Shown here: positions 3,875-64,000 of the stretch, piece by piece
Layout: every line of letters starts with the position of its first letter
How positions within the stretch are numbered: position 1 is the stretch's first letter
Source of the DNA: Pseudomonadota bacterium
Lineage (GTDB): Bacteria > Chloroflexota > UBA5177 > JAJPKF01
Direction: 5' to 3'
Assembly (NCBI GenBank): GCA_021323865.1
Contig: JAJPKF010000012.1
Coordinates: 124,001-188,000 of the forward strand
DNA length: 64,000 nucleotides
Program-made: the position numbers and the translations under genes
The notes under the pieces: generated by a model
Database searches by the model: none
The model's input: the letters and a program-made list of their open reading frames with translations, nothing else
Told to the model about the DNA's origin: nothing

Positions 3875-4159
3875 TCAACGAACTCCGTGAGTCCGCTCGG
3901 ACTTGGCCACGTGGCCACGAAAGTGACGCGTGGGGGCGAACTCGCCCAGCTTGTGACCAACCATGTTCTCGCCGATATAGATCGGTACGTGCCGCTTTCC
4001 GTCGTGGACCGCGATCGTCATTCCCACCATGGCGGGAGTAACCGTCGAGGCACGCGACCATGTTCGAATGATGCGCTTCTCTCCCGTGCGCTGCAGCTCC
4101 TCGACCTTCTTGGCCAGAGCGGGCTGAATGTACGGGCCCTTCTTTACCGATCGCGACAC
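3875..4159 (-). CDS. rpsS: 30S ribosomal protein S19
   Basis: A 94-residue S19, which forms a complex with S13 in the head of the small subunit near the A- and P-site tRNAs. The N-terminal SRSVKKGPY and the C-terminal [16 protein letters not shown] are diagnostic. Translation starts at GTG, confirmed by the conserved N-terminus. The gene lies 58 nt downstream of rplB. Confidence 0.96.
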
Positions 4160-4217
4160 GGCACTACCTCATCGCTAGTGTTCTTTGCAGCTGCAGAACA
4201 TCTGCCAAGTCGAATCA

Positions 4218-5051
4218 TTAGCGGCGCCCCACATTGCGACGCCGAATGACCAGGGCATCTGATCGCTTGGTCCGCCGGGTTCGATATCCGAGCGTCGGCT
4301 TCCCCCAAGGCGTCTGCGGTTGGCCCCCAATGGGCGATTTGCCCTCGCCGCCCCCGTGGGGATGGTCCACCGGGTTCATAACTGATCCACGAACGGTGGG
4401 CCGCTTTCGCAGCCACCGGCTCCTACCGGCCTTTCCCACCTGGATGTTCTGATGCTCGGGGTTCCCGACTGTTCCGATGGTGGCCATCGCCTGAGTGTGA
4501 ATGCGGCGCATCTCCCCGGAGGGCATGCGCACCACGGCGTAGGTGCCCTCGCGGGCCACGAGCTGCGCGGAAACCCCGGCCGACCGTACCAGAACTCCGC
4601 CGCGTCCCGGCTCCAGCTCGATGTTGTGGATCACCGTACCCAAAGGAATCTTTGAAAGTGGAAGCGCGTTACCCACTCGAACATCGGCATCCGGTCCCGA
4701 TGCCACGGTGCTGCCGACGCGCAATCCAAGGGGGGCAAGAATGTATCGCTTCTCGCCGTCCACGTAATGGAGAAGCGCGATTCGGGCCGACCGGTTGGGG
4801 TCATACTCGATCGCGGCAACCCGTGCGTCGATTCCGGCCTTGTCTCGCTTGAAGTCAATGATGCGGTACCGGCGCTTACTTCCGCCGCCCTTGTGTCGCA
4901 CGGTCATGCGGCCACTACGTGACCTGCCCGCACGCTGCGGTAGCGGTGCCAGGAGGCTCTTTTCGGGGCGGGTCTTAGTAATCTCGTCAAAACCCGAGAC
5001 GGTCATTGAGCGTCTGCCGGGAGATGTGGGCTTGTAGCTACGAATGGGCAT
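4218..5051 (-). CDS. rplB: 50S ribosomal protein L2
   Basis: A 277-residue L2, needed for subunit association and peptidyl-transferase centre assembly. Recognisable parts are the N-terminal [12 protein letters not shown], the [22 protein letters not shown] region (about residues 48-70), and the C-terminal [19 protein letters not shown] block. That block holds the conserved His, close to the peptidyl-transferase centre. Length is standard. The ATG at 5051 is 6 nt from the rplW stop, consistent with coupled translation. Confidence 0.97.
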
Positions 5052-59070: not shown

Positions 59071-61575
59071 TTACCGGATTACGAAGTTGACCAGGCGGTC
59101 TGGCACATAGATGGTCTGTGCGGGCGAGTTGTCCTGAAGAAATCTGGCAACCTTGGCGCTTGCTCGAGCGACGCGCTCCACCTCATCCCGATTAGCGCCC
59201 CTCGGAAGCGTGATGATGTCCCGGAGCTTGCCGTTAACCTGGACGGCTACGGTAACCGTCGTCTCAACAGCCAGCTCTGAATCGTACGAGGGCCATGACT
59301 CGAGGTGAATAGACGTATCGTGGCCCCGGTGGTGCCACAGCTCCTCCGTCATGTGGGGGGCAAGTGGGGCACACATCTTCAAAAGATTGTCGATGAGCGC
59401 TGGGTCTGTTGAGTCGTCACGCTCACGTGAGAGCAGGTTCGTATATTCCATGAGGGCGCTGATGGCCGTATTGAATCGGAAGGCTTCAAAGTCCTGCCCC
59501 ACCTTCCGGATGGTTCGGTGCATGGCCCGGAGAAGCTCCTCGTGCTCATTGCCCGATTCGCCGTTCCCGCCACGCCGGTCATCTGTGGCTAGGTCCCACA
59601 TGCGGTTCAGCCATCGCCATACCCCGTTGATGCCCGTCTCATCCCATTCCGCGTCCGCATCGAAGGGGCCCATGAACATGAGGTAGGTGCGTAATGCGTC
59701 CGCCCCGTACTGCGCCACCACGCTGTCGGGTGTCACGACATTGCGGCGCGACTTCGACATGCGTTGACCATCCGCGGCGTGCATCTGTCCCTGGTTGCGC
59801 AGTTTGATGGCCGGCTCACGAAAGTCGACCAAACCTGCATCGTTCATCACTTTGGCAAAGAATCGGAAGTACAACAGGTGCATGACCGCGTGCTCGGCAC
59901 CACCGACATACAGGTCGATCGGAGCCCAGTATCGAGCTGCCGCAGGGTCAAAGGGCCTGGTGGCATCATGAGGGCTCGTAAAGCGAAGGTAATACCAGGA
60001 CGAGTCGACGAAGGTGTCGAGGGTATCTGTTTCTCTCTGGGCCGGTCCGCCGCAGTCCGGGCAGGTGACGTTCACAAACTCAGCCGAGGTAGCCAGCGGT
60101 GACCGACCATCTCCCGCCGGTTGATAGTGCTCGAGGGCGGGAAGCAGTACCGGCAGGTCCTCTTCCGGCACGGGTACGATGCCGCACCCGTCGCAGTACA
60201 CAATCGGGATCGGTGCGCCCCAGTAACGCTGACGTGAAACCAGCCAATCCCGCAGGCGGTAGGTGATTGCCGGCTGTCCAATGCCACGCTCCTTCAGCGC
60301 TTCGACAATTCGCCGGCGTCCCTCCTCGGTGCTGAGTCCCGAGAACTCACCCGAGGAAACCATACGTCCCTCGCCCGTATAGCCCGAATCCTGCTCCGGC
60401 TCGTAACCGTCACGCTCCGGATCAATCTCGACGCCTTCCTTGACCACGGTTCGGATGGGAAGATGAAACTTTCGCGCAAATTCTCGGTCGCGTTCGTCGT
60501 GGCCGGGCACCGCCATGATCGCTCCCGTGCCGTAGCTGACCAACACGTAGTCGGCGATCCAGATGGGGATCTGCTCTCGGGTGAACGGATTCAAAGCATG
60601 CGCGCCTGTGGAGACCCCCGTCTTCTCGCGGTCCGTGGCCAGTCGGGTGATCTCGCTTTCCAGCCCTGACTGCTGTTGATATTGGATGACACGCGCACGA
60701 TGCTCATCAGTCGTCAGCCCGTCAACTTCGGGGTGTTCGGGGGAGAGAACGAGAAAGGTCGCTCCGAAGATGGTGTCCGGCCGGGTGGTGAACACCGGGA
60801 TGGTGACCGCGGAGCCATCGGCGCGTGTGGCCTGGAAATCGATCCGGGCGCCCTCGCTTCGGCCGATCCAGTTGCGCTGCATCGCCAGGATCGGTTCCGG
60901 CCAGTCGAGCTCGTCCAGAGCTGTCAGCAGCTCGTCCGCATAGTCAGTTATCCGGAAGTACCACTGCTCCAACTCCTTGCGTTCCGCCAGCTGGTCGGTG
61001 TGACGCCAGCAGTACCCGTTCTCGACCTGCTCATTTGCCAGGATAGTCTGACACTGGGGACACCACCACTGTGCGGCAACGGCACGGTAGGCGAGACCCC
61101 GCTTGTACATCAGCAGGAAGAACCACTGAGTCCAGCGATAGTAGTCCGGATTGGAGGCGTCGATCTCGCGTTCCCAGTCATAGGACAGGCCCTGAAGACG
61201 CATCTGTCGCTTGTAGTTGGCCGCGTTCTTGGGCGTGTTCTCGGCTGGGTGGACCTGCTTCAGGATGGCCTCGTTTTCAGCCGGCAGTCCGAATGCGTCC
61301 CAGCCCATCGGATGCAGAACATTGACGCCTCGCATCCGCAGGAACCGGCAAAACGTGTCTGTGGGCACATAGTTCTTGGAGTGGCCAACGGACAGGCCAT
61401 CACCTGAGGGGTAGGGAAAGAACTCGAGCAGGTAAAACTTGGGCCGGGAGGGATCGATCTCCGCGTGAAAGAGCCTCATCTCGTCCCAGCGCCGCTGCCA
61501 CTTCTCTTCGATCTCAACGGGAATGTATCGAGGCCTGTCTCCGATGGCCGTGTTGCCCTGCATCTTGCTATTCAC
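59071..61575 (-). CDS. leuS: Leucyl-tRNA synthetase
   Basis: An 834-residue class Ia synthetase. The HIGH-like motif reads SVGHSKNY near residue 60, and KMSKS reads RMSKS in DGQRMSKSRRNV. The CP1 editing domain is present in the middle (about 240-420) with the TRPDTIFGATFLVLSPEHP block, as expected for the bacterial enzyme. The anticodon-binding and C-terminal domains are complete. The GTG start has GGGAG 6 nt upstream. A T-box in its leader with a Leu CUC specifier predicts induction by uncharged tRNA-Leu. Confidence 0.96.
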   Translation of the reverse strand: MNSKMQGNTAIGDRPRYIPVEIEEKWQRRWDEMRLFHAEIDPSRPKFYLLEFFPYPSGDGLSVGHSKNYVPTDTFCRFLRMRGVNVLHPMGWDAFGLPAENEAILKQVHPAENTPKNAANYKRQMRLQGLSYDWEREIDASNPDYYRWTQWFFLLMYKRGLAYRAVAAQWWCPQCQTILANEQVENGYCWRHTDQLAERKELEQWYFRITDYADELLTALDELDWPEPILAMQRNWIGRSEGARIDFQATRADGSAVTIPVFTTRPDTIFGATFLVLSPEHPEVDGLTTDEHRARVIQYQQQSGLESEITRLATDREKTGVSTGAHALNPFTREQIPIWIADYVLVSYGTGAIMAVPGHDERDREFARKFHLPIRTVVKEGVEIDPERDGYEPEQDSGYTGEGRMVSSGEFSGLSTEEGRRRIVEALKERGIGQPAITYRLRDWLVSRQRYWGAPIPIVYCDGCGIVPVPEEDLPVLLPALEHYQPAGDGRSPLATSAEFVNVTCPDCGGPAQRETDTLDTFVDSSWYYLRFTSPHDATRPFDPAAARYWAPIDLYVGGAEHAVMHLLYFRFFAKVMNDAGLVDFREPAIKLRNQGQMHAADGQRMSKSRRNVVTPDSVVAQYGADALRTYLMFMGPFDADAEWDETGINGVWRWLNRMWDLATDDRRGGNGESGNEHEELLRAMHRTIRKVGQDFEAFRFNTAISALMEYTNLLSRERDDSTDPALIDNLLKMCAPLAPHMTEELWHHRGHDTSIHLESWPSYDSELAVETTVTVAVQVNGKLRDIITLPRGANRDEVERVARASAKVARFLQDNSPAQTIYVPDRLVNFVIR

Positions 61576-61628
61576 ATCGCACTCCCTCGGTTTCGCACGC
61601 GTTCGACTCTCCTGAGAATCCGCTCAAC

Positions 61629-61659
61629 AAAAAACCCTCCGTCCATTCGGGACGGAGGG
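61629..61659 (-). terminator. T-box-linked intrinsic terminator before leuS
   Basis: A perfect 10-bp stem, CCCTCCGTCC with GGACGGAGGG, and a 5-nt loop, followed by six T on the minus strand. The CCC at its 5' arm can instead pair with the GGG of the T-box sequence, which is the standard antiterminator switch. It lies 54 bp before the leuS GTG. Confidence 0.93.
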
Positions 61660-61694
61660 TTGGCTCCGCGGTACCACCCGGGTTGTCGAAAGGT

Positions 61695-61770
61695 TGGTGG
61701 AGCTGAGGGGACTCGAACCCCTGACTTCCTGCATGCCATGCAGGCGCTCTTCCAGCTGAGCTACAGCCCC
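61695..61770 (-). tRNA. tRNA-Ala (anticodon GGC)
   Basis: A complete 76-nt cloverleaf. The acceptor stem is GGGGCTG/CAGCTCC with the G3-U70 pair that identifies alanine tRNAs. The D arm is GCTCAGCTGG..AGAGC, the anticodon stem CCTGC/GCAGG with loop AT-GGC-AT, and the T arm contains GGTTCGAGTCCC. The discriminator is A and the CCA is encoded. It lies inside the leuS T-box leader, with 14 nt between the CCA and the T-box sequence. Confidence 0.97.
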
Positions 61771-61951
61771 AAGACTGACCTTGTCGACCACTCGTGCGCG
61801 CTGAACGGGACGCGCGCCCACAACGTTCGCGGACGGATGAGTTCAGCCTCGGTGCCGGCTTCCACCACAGCCCGGCTCGCTTGAAGAGGGCCTACTACTT
61901 CCGCCCAACGCCTGTATGTCTTTCATCCATACGTTCCGCATGGATGGCTCC

Positions 61952-61983
61952 ATTTTACCGGGCCGACTGCATGCGGGTCCCAA
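61952..61983 (-). promoter_or_regulatory. Candidate promoter of the tRNA-Ala/T-box/leuS unit
   Basis: On the minus strand TAAAAT (61957-61952) is a good -10. The best -35 is TTGGGA (61983-61978), 20 bp away, longer than ideal. Transcription would start near 61945, about 30 nt before Stem I. I saw no separate promoter between Stem I and the tRNA, which suggests that the tRNA is transcribed with the leader. Confidence 0.45.
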
Positions 61984-62056
61984 CATCCGCATCGCTCTCC
62001 GGTACGTGCCTTAACCACGAAGCAAGTGGACACCTCGACACGGTACTGTAGTCCGG

Positions 62057-62085
62057 TTGCCAAATTCGTCAAATCGGCCTAAAAT
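62057..62085 (+). promoter_or_regulatory. Promoter of the rel gene
   Basis: TTGCCA and TAAAAT with a 17-bp spacer, near consensus. Transcription would start near 62092, about 73 nt before the GTG start of rel. The rest of 61984-62164 shows nothing further. Confidence 0.72.
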
Positions 62086-62164
62086 CGGCGTAATAGGCGC
62101 GTTAACGCTCGAGGGTGGTCGTCCTGCCGCTTCGAGGTCGTCTCGTGCCCTTCCGGGGTTATCA

Positions 62165-64000
62165 GTGCTCACAGCACGCGAAGTTCCGAACGTAATTGAT
62201 CCGACCTTTCCTATGCTCGTCGAGAGCATGTCGCAGGGCTATGACGACAAGGCTTTGACTCTTGTCGAACGCTCTTACGACTTCGCACGAGAGGCGCACG
62301 GTGACACGAGGCGGCTTTCGGGCCAGCCGTACATCGTCCACCCCTTGGCGACCGCGTACTATTTGGCTTCAATGCGCCTGGACCCAGCCACGATATCCGC
62401 TGGGATGCTTCATGACGTGGTCGAGGATACGCAGGCCTCGCTCGCGGATGTCGAGACCGAATTTGGACCGACCATCAAGCGATTGGTCGACGGCGTAACG
62501 AAGTTCGCGGAGCTGCGCCGTAGGGCCGGCGATCCGCGCGAAGCGGATGGGGATGATCGCAAGAAGCCCGACTATACCCGTGAGCAGGCCGAGAATCTGC
62601 GGAAGATGTTTCTGGCCATGGCAGAGGACCCACGCGTCGTCATTGTCAAGCTGGCCGATCGCCTACACAACATGCGGACACTGGACGTCCTTCGAGAGGA
62701 AAAGCAGCGACGCATTGCTGCAGACACCCGAGAGATCTATGCCCCCTTGGCTGGTCGCCTGGGGATCGCGCAGCTAAAGTGGCCATTGGAAGATCTAGCG
62801 TTCAAGTACCTGGAGCCGGAGCACTACTGGTGGCTGGTGGACCAGCTGGCAGAACAGCTAGGCAGCCGTCAGGAGTTCATCGACTCGATGGTCAGTGGCC
62901 TGCGCGAGGCGCTCGCCGGGCAGGGCATTCAGGCCGACATCTACGGACGCCCTAAGCATCTCTACAGCATCTATCGAAAGCTGCTCCGTCCTGAGATCAG
63001 CATGGACATCTCGCGCATCTTTGATCTCTTTGCGATTCGAGTGCTGACGGAAACCGAGGTCGAATGCTACCAAGCCCTGGGAATCGTGCACTCGATGTGG
63101 CCGCCAATGGGTTCTCGGATCAAGGACTATATCGCTCTCCCGAAGCCGAATGGCTATCAGTCACTGCATACGACGGTGGTGCCGGCGAACGGCAGAACCA
63201 TCGAGGTGCAGATTCGCACCGTCGCCATGCATGAGATCGCCGAGTTCGGCCTTGCCGCCCACTGGTACTACAAGGAACGAGGTCAGTCGGTCAGTCTGCC
63301 CGACACGCTCACCTCATGGGTGAAGGCCTTGACCAGCTGGCAACAGGAGCTGGGTCAGGACGCCGCCGACTTCGTGGACACGCTGAAGGTTGACATGTTC
63401 GGCGGCGAGGTCTTCGTGTTCAGTCCCCGCGGAGACGTCATCGACCTCCCGGCGGGCTCTACGCCCGTTGATTTCGCCTATCGCATCCACACCGACATCG
63501 GAAACCGCTGTATCGGCGCCAAGGTGAACGGCATCATGGTGCCGCTCAATCATGAATTGCAAACCGCCGACCGGGTCGAAATCCTGACCACCAAAATTGC
63601 ACGTGGTCCCAGCCGCGACTGGATGAGCTTCGTCAAGACGGCGTCGGCCCGACAGAAGATCAGACAGTGGTTCAAGCGCCAGAATCGGGACGATAACATC
63701 GCCCGCGGCCGCGATCTCCTAGACCATGAGCTACAGCGCCTCGACCAGCGCCGGTTCAGCGAGGTCAATCTCGAGCTTCTCGGCAAAGTGGCCGTCAACT
63801 TGCATTACAAGTCCCTTGAGGACCTCCTGGCCGCCATCGGCTACGGGGCGCAGTCGGCGCACGGCGTGGTGGCCCGGCTGGGGCTGCGAAACCAGCCCGA
63901 CGACGGCCAGCTGCCGGCCGAGGCGCCCCCAACGCGCCAACCGACTCCGGGAGTCCAGGTCATGGGTGTCGGGAACCTCTTGACGCGAATCGCGTCGTGT
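62165..64000 (+). CDS. rel: Bifunctional (p)ppGpp synthetase/hydrolase, 3' end cut by window
   Basis: 612 codons are visible; the frame is open to the window end. The hydrolase HD domain is intact (HPLATAYYL, HD at residues 83-84 in LHDVVEDT, and LADRLHNMRTL). The synthetase domain has GRPKHLYSIYRK and RIKD at 318-321, the RxKD signature of bifunctional Rel rather than ExDD of synthetase-only RelA. A TGS domain (about 405-465) follows, then the start of the C-terminal regulatory region. The GTG start is preceded by a weak GGGG; ATGs at 62213 and 62228 are alternatives. It is divergent from the leuS leader, so amino-acid starvation signals meet here. Confidence 0.93.
   Translation, partial: MLTAREVPNVIDPTFPMLVESMSQGYDDKALTLVERSYDFAREAHGDTRRLSGQPYIVHPLATAYYLASMRLDPATISAGMLHDVVEDTQASLADVETEFGPTIKRLVDGVTKFAELRRRAGDPREADGDDRKKPDYTREQAENLRKMFLAMAEDPRVVIVKLADRLHNMRTLDVLREEKQRRIAADTREIYAPLAGRLGIAQLKWPLEDLAFKYLEPEHYWWLVDQLAEQLGSRQEFIDSMVSGLREALAGQGIQADIYGRPKHLYSIYRKLLRPEISMDISRIFDLFAIRVLTETEVECYQALGIVHSMWPPMGSRIKDYIALPKPNGYQSLHTTVVPANGRTIEVQIRTVAMHEIAEFGLAAHWYYKERGQSVSLPDTLTSWVKALTSWQQELGQDAADFVDTLKVDMFGGEVFVFSPRGDVIDLPAGSTPVDFAYRIHTDIGNRCIGAKVNGIMVPLNHELQTADRVEILTTKIARGPSRDWMSFVKTASARQKIRQWFKRQNRDDNIARGRDLLDHELQRLDQRRFSEVNLELLGKVAVNLHYKSLEDLLAAIGYGAQSAHGVVARLGLRNQPDDGQLPAEAPPTRQPTPGVQVMGVGNLLTRIASC

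Follow-up and report, generated by a model that had tools for sequence, protein, structure and literature searches.

The making of a tRNA and an mRNA from one primary transcript is exemplified by the E. coli tRNA-tufB operon, in which RNase P and 3′ processing free the tRNA. In that operon tRNA and mRNA are neighbours, whereas in the locus described here the tRNA lies inside a regulatory RNA element that itself senses tRNA. Such elements, the T-boxes, carry the discriminator motif RRRxG-Stem III-AA (PMC7583486, PMC7778990). Stem II is usual in them but not obligatory, as glycine T-boxes do without it, and a review describes insertions in Stem III as being of unknown function (PMC7583486). In B. 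cereus, too, a tRNA gene and a T-box are connected in an unusual way, the pseudo-tRNA tRNA-Other being linked to the trpS1 T-box (PMC3399842); that tRNA is, however, separate, non-translational and acts in trans. A 2008 survey gave only ile and trp T-boxes for its two Chloroflexi (PMC2494555). Our search of the open literature turned up no T-box described as enclosing a tRNA gene, the surveys of Vitreschak 2008 and Gutierrez-Preciado 2009 lying outside this search.

The leader studied here resembles the leucine T-boxes of the RF00230 family in its Stem I with S-turn and CUC, its RRRxG-Stem III-AA motif, its core, its competing terminator and its place before leuS. It differs from them in that the loop of Stem III contains a complete tRNA gene for another amino acid and, in the window, in the reduction of Stem II and IIA/B. 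With the described Stem III insertions (PMC7583486) it shares the position, Stem III being tolerant of insertions, but here the inserted sequence can be identified as a tRNA gene, which among the matches listed is always Ala(GGC) and always with leuS.

We consider it fairly probable that the leader is a leucine T-box acting on transcription, with a functional tRNA-Ala(GGC) in the loop of its Stem III, one RNA both yielding the tRNA and switching leuS. The observations behind this reading are the anatomy of the leader, its conservation, the covariation of Stem III, a single-copy tRNA with alanine identity and the lack of a recognisable internal promoter in the window.

The leuS leader in the window

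The window is the whole stretch of DNA that was analysed, 64,000 nucleotides long; the features of the leader are collected in Table 1. The first-pass annotation had described a leuS T-box interrupted by a complete tRNA-Ala(GGC), and both RF00230 and ARAGORN agree with this description. RF00230 aligned end to end (model positions 1-219) to positions 61917-61645 of the minus strand, with 50.4 bits (E 5e-9) and a 90-nt insert at Stem III. This score is below the curated cut-off of the model, 93 bits; homologous leuS leaders that also contain the tRNA scored 120.9 and 94.5 bits, above the cut-off. The Stem I with a Leu CUC specifier that had been proposed is likewise covered by the model.

The specifier reads tRNA-Leu(GAG), which the genome encodes with an ACCA end, and the UGGU bulge at 61676-61673 is complementary to this end. 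A canonical Stem II and a IIA/B pseudoknot were not found in the window, where the Rfam Stem II pairs are broken. In most other carriers, whose leaders were read by eye, both elements are intact and are found between Stem I and the tRNA. By these features the element is a transcriptional T-box of the leucine class upstream of leuS, and its readthrough is predicted to respond to tRNA charging. Homologues of leuS were present in 151 of the 151 genomes of the phylum that were searched.

Table 1. Features of the leuS leader, in positions of the window
Feature	Position	Strand	Basis
Predicted promoter TTGACG-16-TACAGT, upstream of Stem I	62045-62072	-	consensus scan, 9/12
T-box Stem I	61828-61917	-	RF00230 alignment, model 1-102
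Specifier codon CUC (Leu; CTC in the DNA), directly after S-turn GAA	61839-61841	-	sequence
GC-rich hairpin where Stem II/IIA-B is expected	about 61795-61822	-	sequence, fold
5′ purine motif GAGUG (RRRxG) of the discriminator	61789-61793	-	sequence; conserved among carriers
Stem III 5′ strand GUCGACAAGG	61779-61788	-	pairs with 61693-61685; covariation in relatives
tRNA-Ala(GGC), encoded CCA, G3:U70, in Stem III apical loop	61695-61770	-	ARAGORN, RF00005
Stem III 3′ strand CCUUUCGAC	61685-61693	-	pairs with 61788-61779; covariation in relatives
AA of the RRRxG-Stem III-AA motif	61683-61684	-	sequence; conserved among carriers
Antiterminator with T-box core GGGUGGUACCGCGG	61648-61680	-	RF00230 alignment, folding energy
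T-box core GGGTGGTACCGCGG	61679-61666	-	sequence
Intrinsic terminator hairpin (12 pairs) and T run	61629-61661	-	terminator scan, fold
leuS, leucyl-tRNA synthetase, predicted regulated gene	59071-61575	-	ORF

The nested tRNA and the Stem III helix around it

ARAGORN recognized one tRNA in the window, the nested tRNA-Ala(GGC), which scored 66 bits with RF00005. It has the cloverleaf, the GGC anticodon and the G3:U70 pair of a functional bacterial tRNA-Ala; this pair, by which AlaRS identifies its substrate, occurs in the window and in every one of the 119 nested tRNAs examined. The window genome has 46 tRNA matches, with three alanine tRNAs according to ARAGORN (UGC, CGC and GGC). The nested gene is its sole tRNA-Ala(GGC), although, since the assembly is about 92% complete, there is still some room for a second copy. 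In three genes of the window, GCC and GCT together make up 134 of the 230 Ala codons. This codon usage and the sole GGC copy suggest that the nested tRNA is likely functional; its expression, processing and aminoacylation are predicted.

An anticodon-arm pattern for tRNA-Ala(GGC), which would miss variant tRNAs, gave exactly one match in 24 of the 25 genomes tested. The sole match was the nested gene in 23 of the 25 and a free-standing gene in G006, a genome of the same class. A tRNA-sensing regulator would also serve as precursor to another tRNA, whose gene is apparently the sole copy for its isoacceptor in most carriers tested, and the supply of tRNA-Ala(GGC) in carriers would hang on the promoter of the leuS leader.

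The encoded ACCA of the window's tRNA lies about 20 nt upstream of the UGGU bulge, and the nested tRNA might act in cis, for instance by pairing with that bulge and so competing with the sensed tRNA or mimicking it. We regard such an action as very improbable: the precursor does not present the CCA as a free 3′ terminus, and among the matches listed 34 of the 119 nested tRNAs lack an encoded CCA, so the feature is not conserved. Pairing between the nested ACCA and UGGU was set aside on the latter ground.

In the first-pass annotation the tRNA took the place of Stems II, IIA/B and III. It actually occupies only the loop of Stem III, both strands of which are kept. Nor does it simply follow, as had been expected for a joint transcript, that cutting parts Stem I from the antiterminator: the Stem III helix closes the loop that bears the tRNA and joins the two halves, so excision need not split them at once.

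The RRRxG-Stem III-AA motif, with its pairing, was found in 112 anchored leaders. In the covariation test, anchors were taken from the flanking motifs and not from the pairing itself, and six positions were compared in 80 distinct leaders. Of the resulting cells, 75.2% were paired in register. Shuffled partners gave 54.8% (sd 1.6%, maximum 60.2% in 1000 shuffles, uncorrected for relatedness), slid registers gave 29-47%, and compensatory pair types were seen at several positions. With the best anchors, 5 or 6 of the first six positions were paired in 90 of the 112 leaders, compared with 28% for mismatched partners. By these measures the strands of Stem III covary around the nested tRNA. Stem III was also examined with free-energy duplexes over the full 45-nt flank, which proved too noisy for a test, a median of 35% of mismatched partners being equally good; register-anchored tests were therefore used.

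Spread of the nesting and its evolutionary states

A total of 84,980 species genomes were scanned for T-box cores preceded, at a distance of 16-46 nt, by a tRNA T-loop, a pattern that takes no account of the type of tRNA or of the gene. At least 119 stretches match. Among the matches listed, ARAGORN found a tRNA at the place in 115 of 119, which was Ala(GGC) in 115 of 115, and leuS lay downstream in 109 of 119. Seven of the remaining ten listed matches end too soon (at the ends of contigs or stretches), and three (L112, L122, L158) look like chance. The readable carrier leaders among these matches have the CUC specifier nearly throughout. Conservation of the core within this set is a selection effect, because the pattern demanded an intact T-box core.

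The carriers are labelled Bacillota, Chloroflexota, Thermomicrobiota (Thermomicrobia), Armatimonadota, Coprothermobacterota and Caldisericota, and a few Desulfovibrio or proteobacterial. Three of the latter (L217, L226, L181) are probably misbinned: in the LeuS tree L217 groups with Chloroflexota and L181 with Bacillota, and the LeuS of L217 is identical to that of G001, from the window's own order. Judged by the scan, well over a hundred genomes share this nesting, and they belong to several bacterial phyla; among the matches listed the same tRNA is always with the same gene. In L121, L136 and L140 (Coprothermobacterota, Caldisericota) Stem I is very short, and the CUC specifier and the nested tRNA are kept.

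The window's genome is a fragmented draft of 30 contigs, in which a chance juxtaposition or an assembly artefact might be suspected. The probability of this is practically negligible, and the suspicion is refuted by the agreement of many independent assemblies, including those of the type strains Syntrophomonas palmitatica and Desulfovirgula thermocuniculi.

In an even sample of 400 genomes from the window's phylum, the exact pattern occurred in 20, which, given the strictness of the pattern, is a minimum. Among 20 long T-boxes taken from the phylum to look for other tRNAs in other T-boxes, 4 enclose a tRNA, in every case Ala(GGC). For Syntrophomonadia, the class of S. palmitatica, leuS loci were found by protein and not by T-box. 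Among their 28 readable leaders, 26 have the nested tRNA, one has it with Ns and one has a decayed tRNA. Two leaders of this class that had passed for tRNA-free were rejected as such, L342 being the copy with Ns and L349 the decayed copy.

Whether the insertion is conserved in close relatives had been a question of the first-pass annotation, and the same nested tRNA is indeed present in the leuS leaders of G001, G002 and G004, all of the same order. In G004 (L080) the T-box core is decayed and the tRNA intact. In L305, L310 and L314 a tRNA and a terminator precede leuS without a recognisable T-box, and L305 has what looks like a decayed remnant of the core. These four cases suggest that in some lineages the tRNA outlives the switch.

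They also fit a reading in which the T-box of the window is a relic, only the tRNA and the downstream terminator being functional and the regulation of leuS by leucine lost; the reduced Stem II of the window points the same way. We find this improbable. Stem I, the CUC specifier, the RRRxG and AA motifs and the Stem III pairing, none of which were selected by the scan, are kept in most carriers, and an intact tRNA (one with Ns) occurs together with a T-box core in 27 of the 28 readable Syntrophomonadia leaders.

Other arrangements were observed as well. G006 has a leuS T-box with an empty Stem III (79.1 bits), and its tRNA-Ala(GGC) is located elsewhere, adjoining an ORF that reads as ribosomal protein L21. 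L308 (1080-1421) combines an empty Stem III with a tRNA-Ala(GGC) that precedes Stem I. The leuS T-box of L318 (about 4007-4274, 114.7 bits) holds GGGCCTGTAG...CAGGTCCA in its Stem III loop. These are the intact acceptor arms of a decayed tRNA, and another contig bears a tRNA-Ala(GGC) that is intact and has an identical acceptor stem. On the LeuS tree, with 135 rows, the nested state changed at least 11 times. We read the nesting as an old arrangement that was lost many times, gain and loss being not formally separable on an unrooted tree with a sampling biased towards carriers.

Promoters, folding and a possible order of events

In a consensus scan of positions 61400-62300, the only promoter-like match on the minus strand was the site upstream of Stem I. 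A promoter and terminator of its own, which would have isolated the tRNA from the T-box, were searched for in the window and not found. Among 104 leaders, promoter-like sites lay upstream of Stem I in 59 and between the specifier and the tRNA in 5.

Unconstrained folding of the window's leader did not return the T-box form; structures with the tRNA, Stem III and the terminator were within 3 kcal/mol of the unconstrained minimum. Terminator and antiterminator are mutually exclusive, and each can be drawn with the tRNA intact. When the tRNA and Stem III were enforced, the antiterminator form lay about 9 kcal/mol above the terminator form. This order of energies fits a T-box that is off by default, since the antiterminator form is the costlier and tRNA is needed to read through.

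On the reading that we favour, that of a T-box hosting a functional tRNA, a single leader RNA would be transcribed from the one promoter upstream of Stem I. RNA polymerase would cross the tRNA before reaching the terminator, so that tRNA-Ala would be made at any leucine state; because of this position its synthesis should not depend on leucine. During transcription the T-box would decide on readthrough into leuS, in response to the charging state of tRNA-Leu(GAG). The tRNA would probably then be freed, and the leader dismantled, by RNase P and 3′ processing. After excision two RNAs would remain, still connected through Stem III, which may serve as a clamp.

The reverse order, in which excision by RNase P precedes the decision, is rather unlikely in our estimation. 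The leader would then be a split, self-dismantling riboswitch whose halves, clamped by Stem III, are bridged by tRNA-Leu; maturation and attenuation would be kinetically coupled, and the rate of tRNA processing might set leuS expression or the 5′ ends of the mRNA. Such an order is suggested by the placing of the tRNA always within the covarying Stem III helix, not merely between domains, by the length of this helix in G001 and G002, and by the fact that RNases Y and J cleave T-box leaders in B. subtilis (PMC3542257). Every T-box needs Stem III, however, and its conservation is hence no sign of clamping. Many carriers have only about 5-6 pairs in it, and the distance from the end of the tRNA to the terminator is only about 60-100 nt, so that the decision may precede cleavage.

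The arrangement opens several points to experiment: whether a T-box must be an intact RNA, how the speed of RNase P compares with that of the attenuation decision, and what Stem III tolerates.

Two further linkages of tRNA genes with T-boxes were noticed. In L079 (1070-1145), L081 (4443-4368), L321, L324 and several Anaerolineae loci a tRNA-Ala(CGC) is found upstream of Stem I; as it precedes Stem I in the same leuS leader, two alanine tRNAs may share one transcript. In the window genome, Stem I of the thrS T-box directly adjoins a tRNA-Val(GAC) (L002 1501-1770; G000:C5:252926-253195), and the same is seen in G006 (L276 854-1148).
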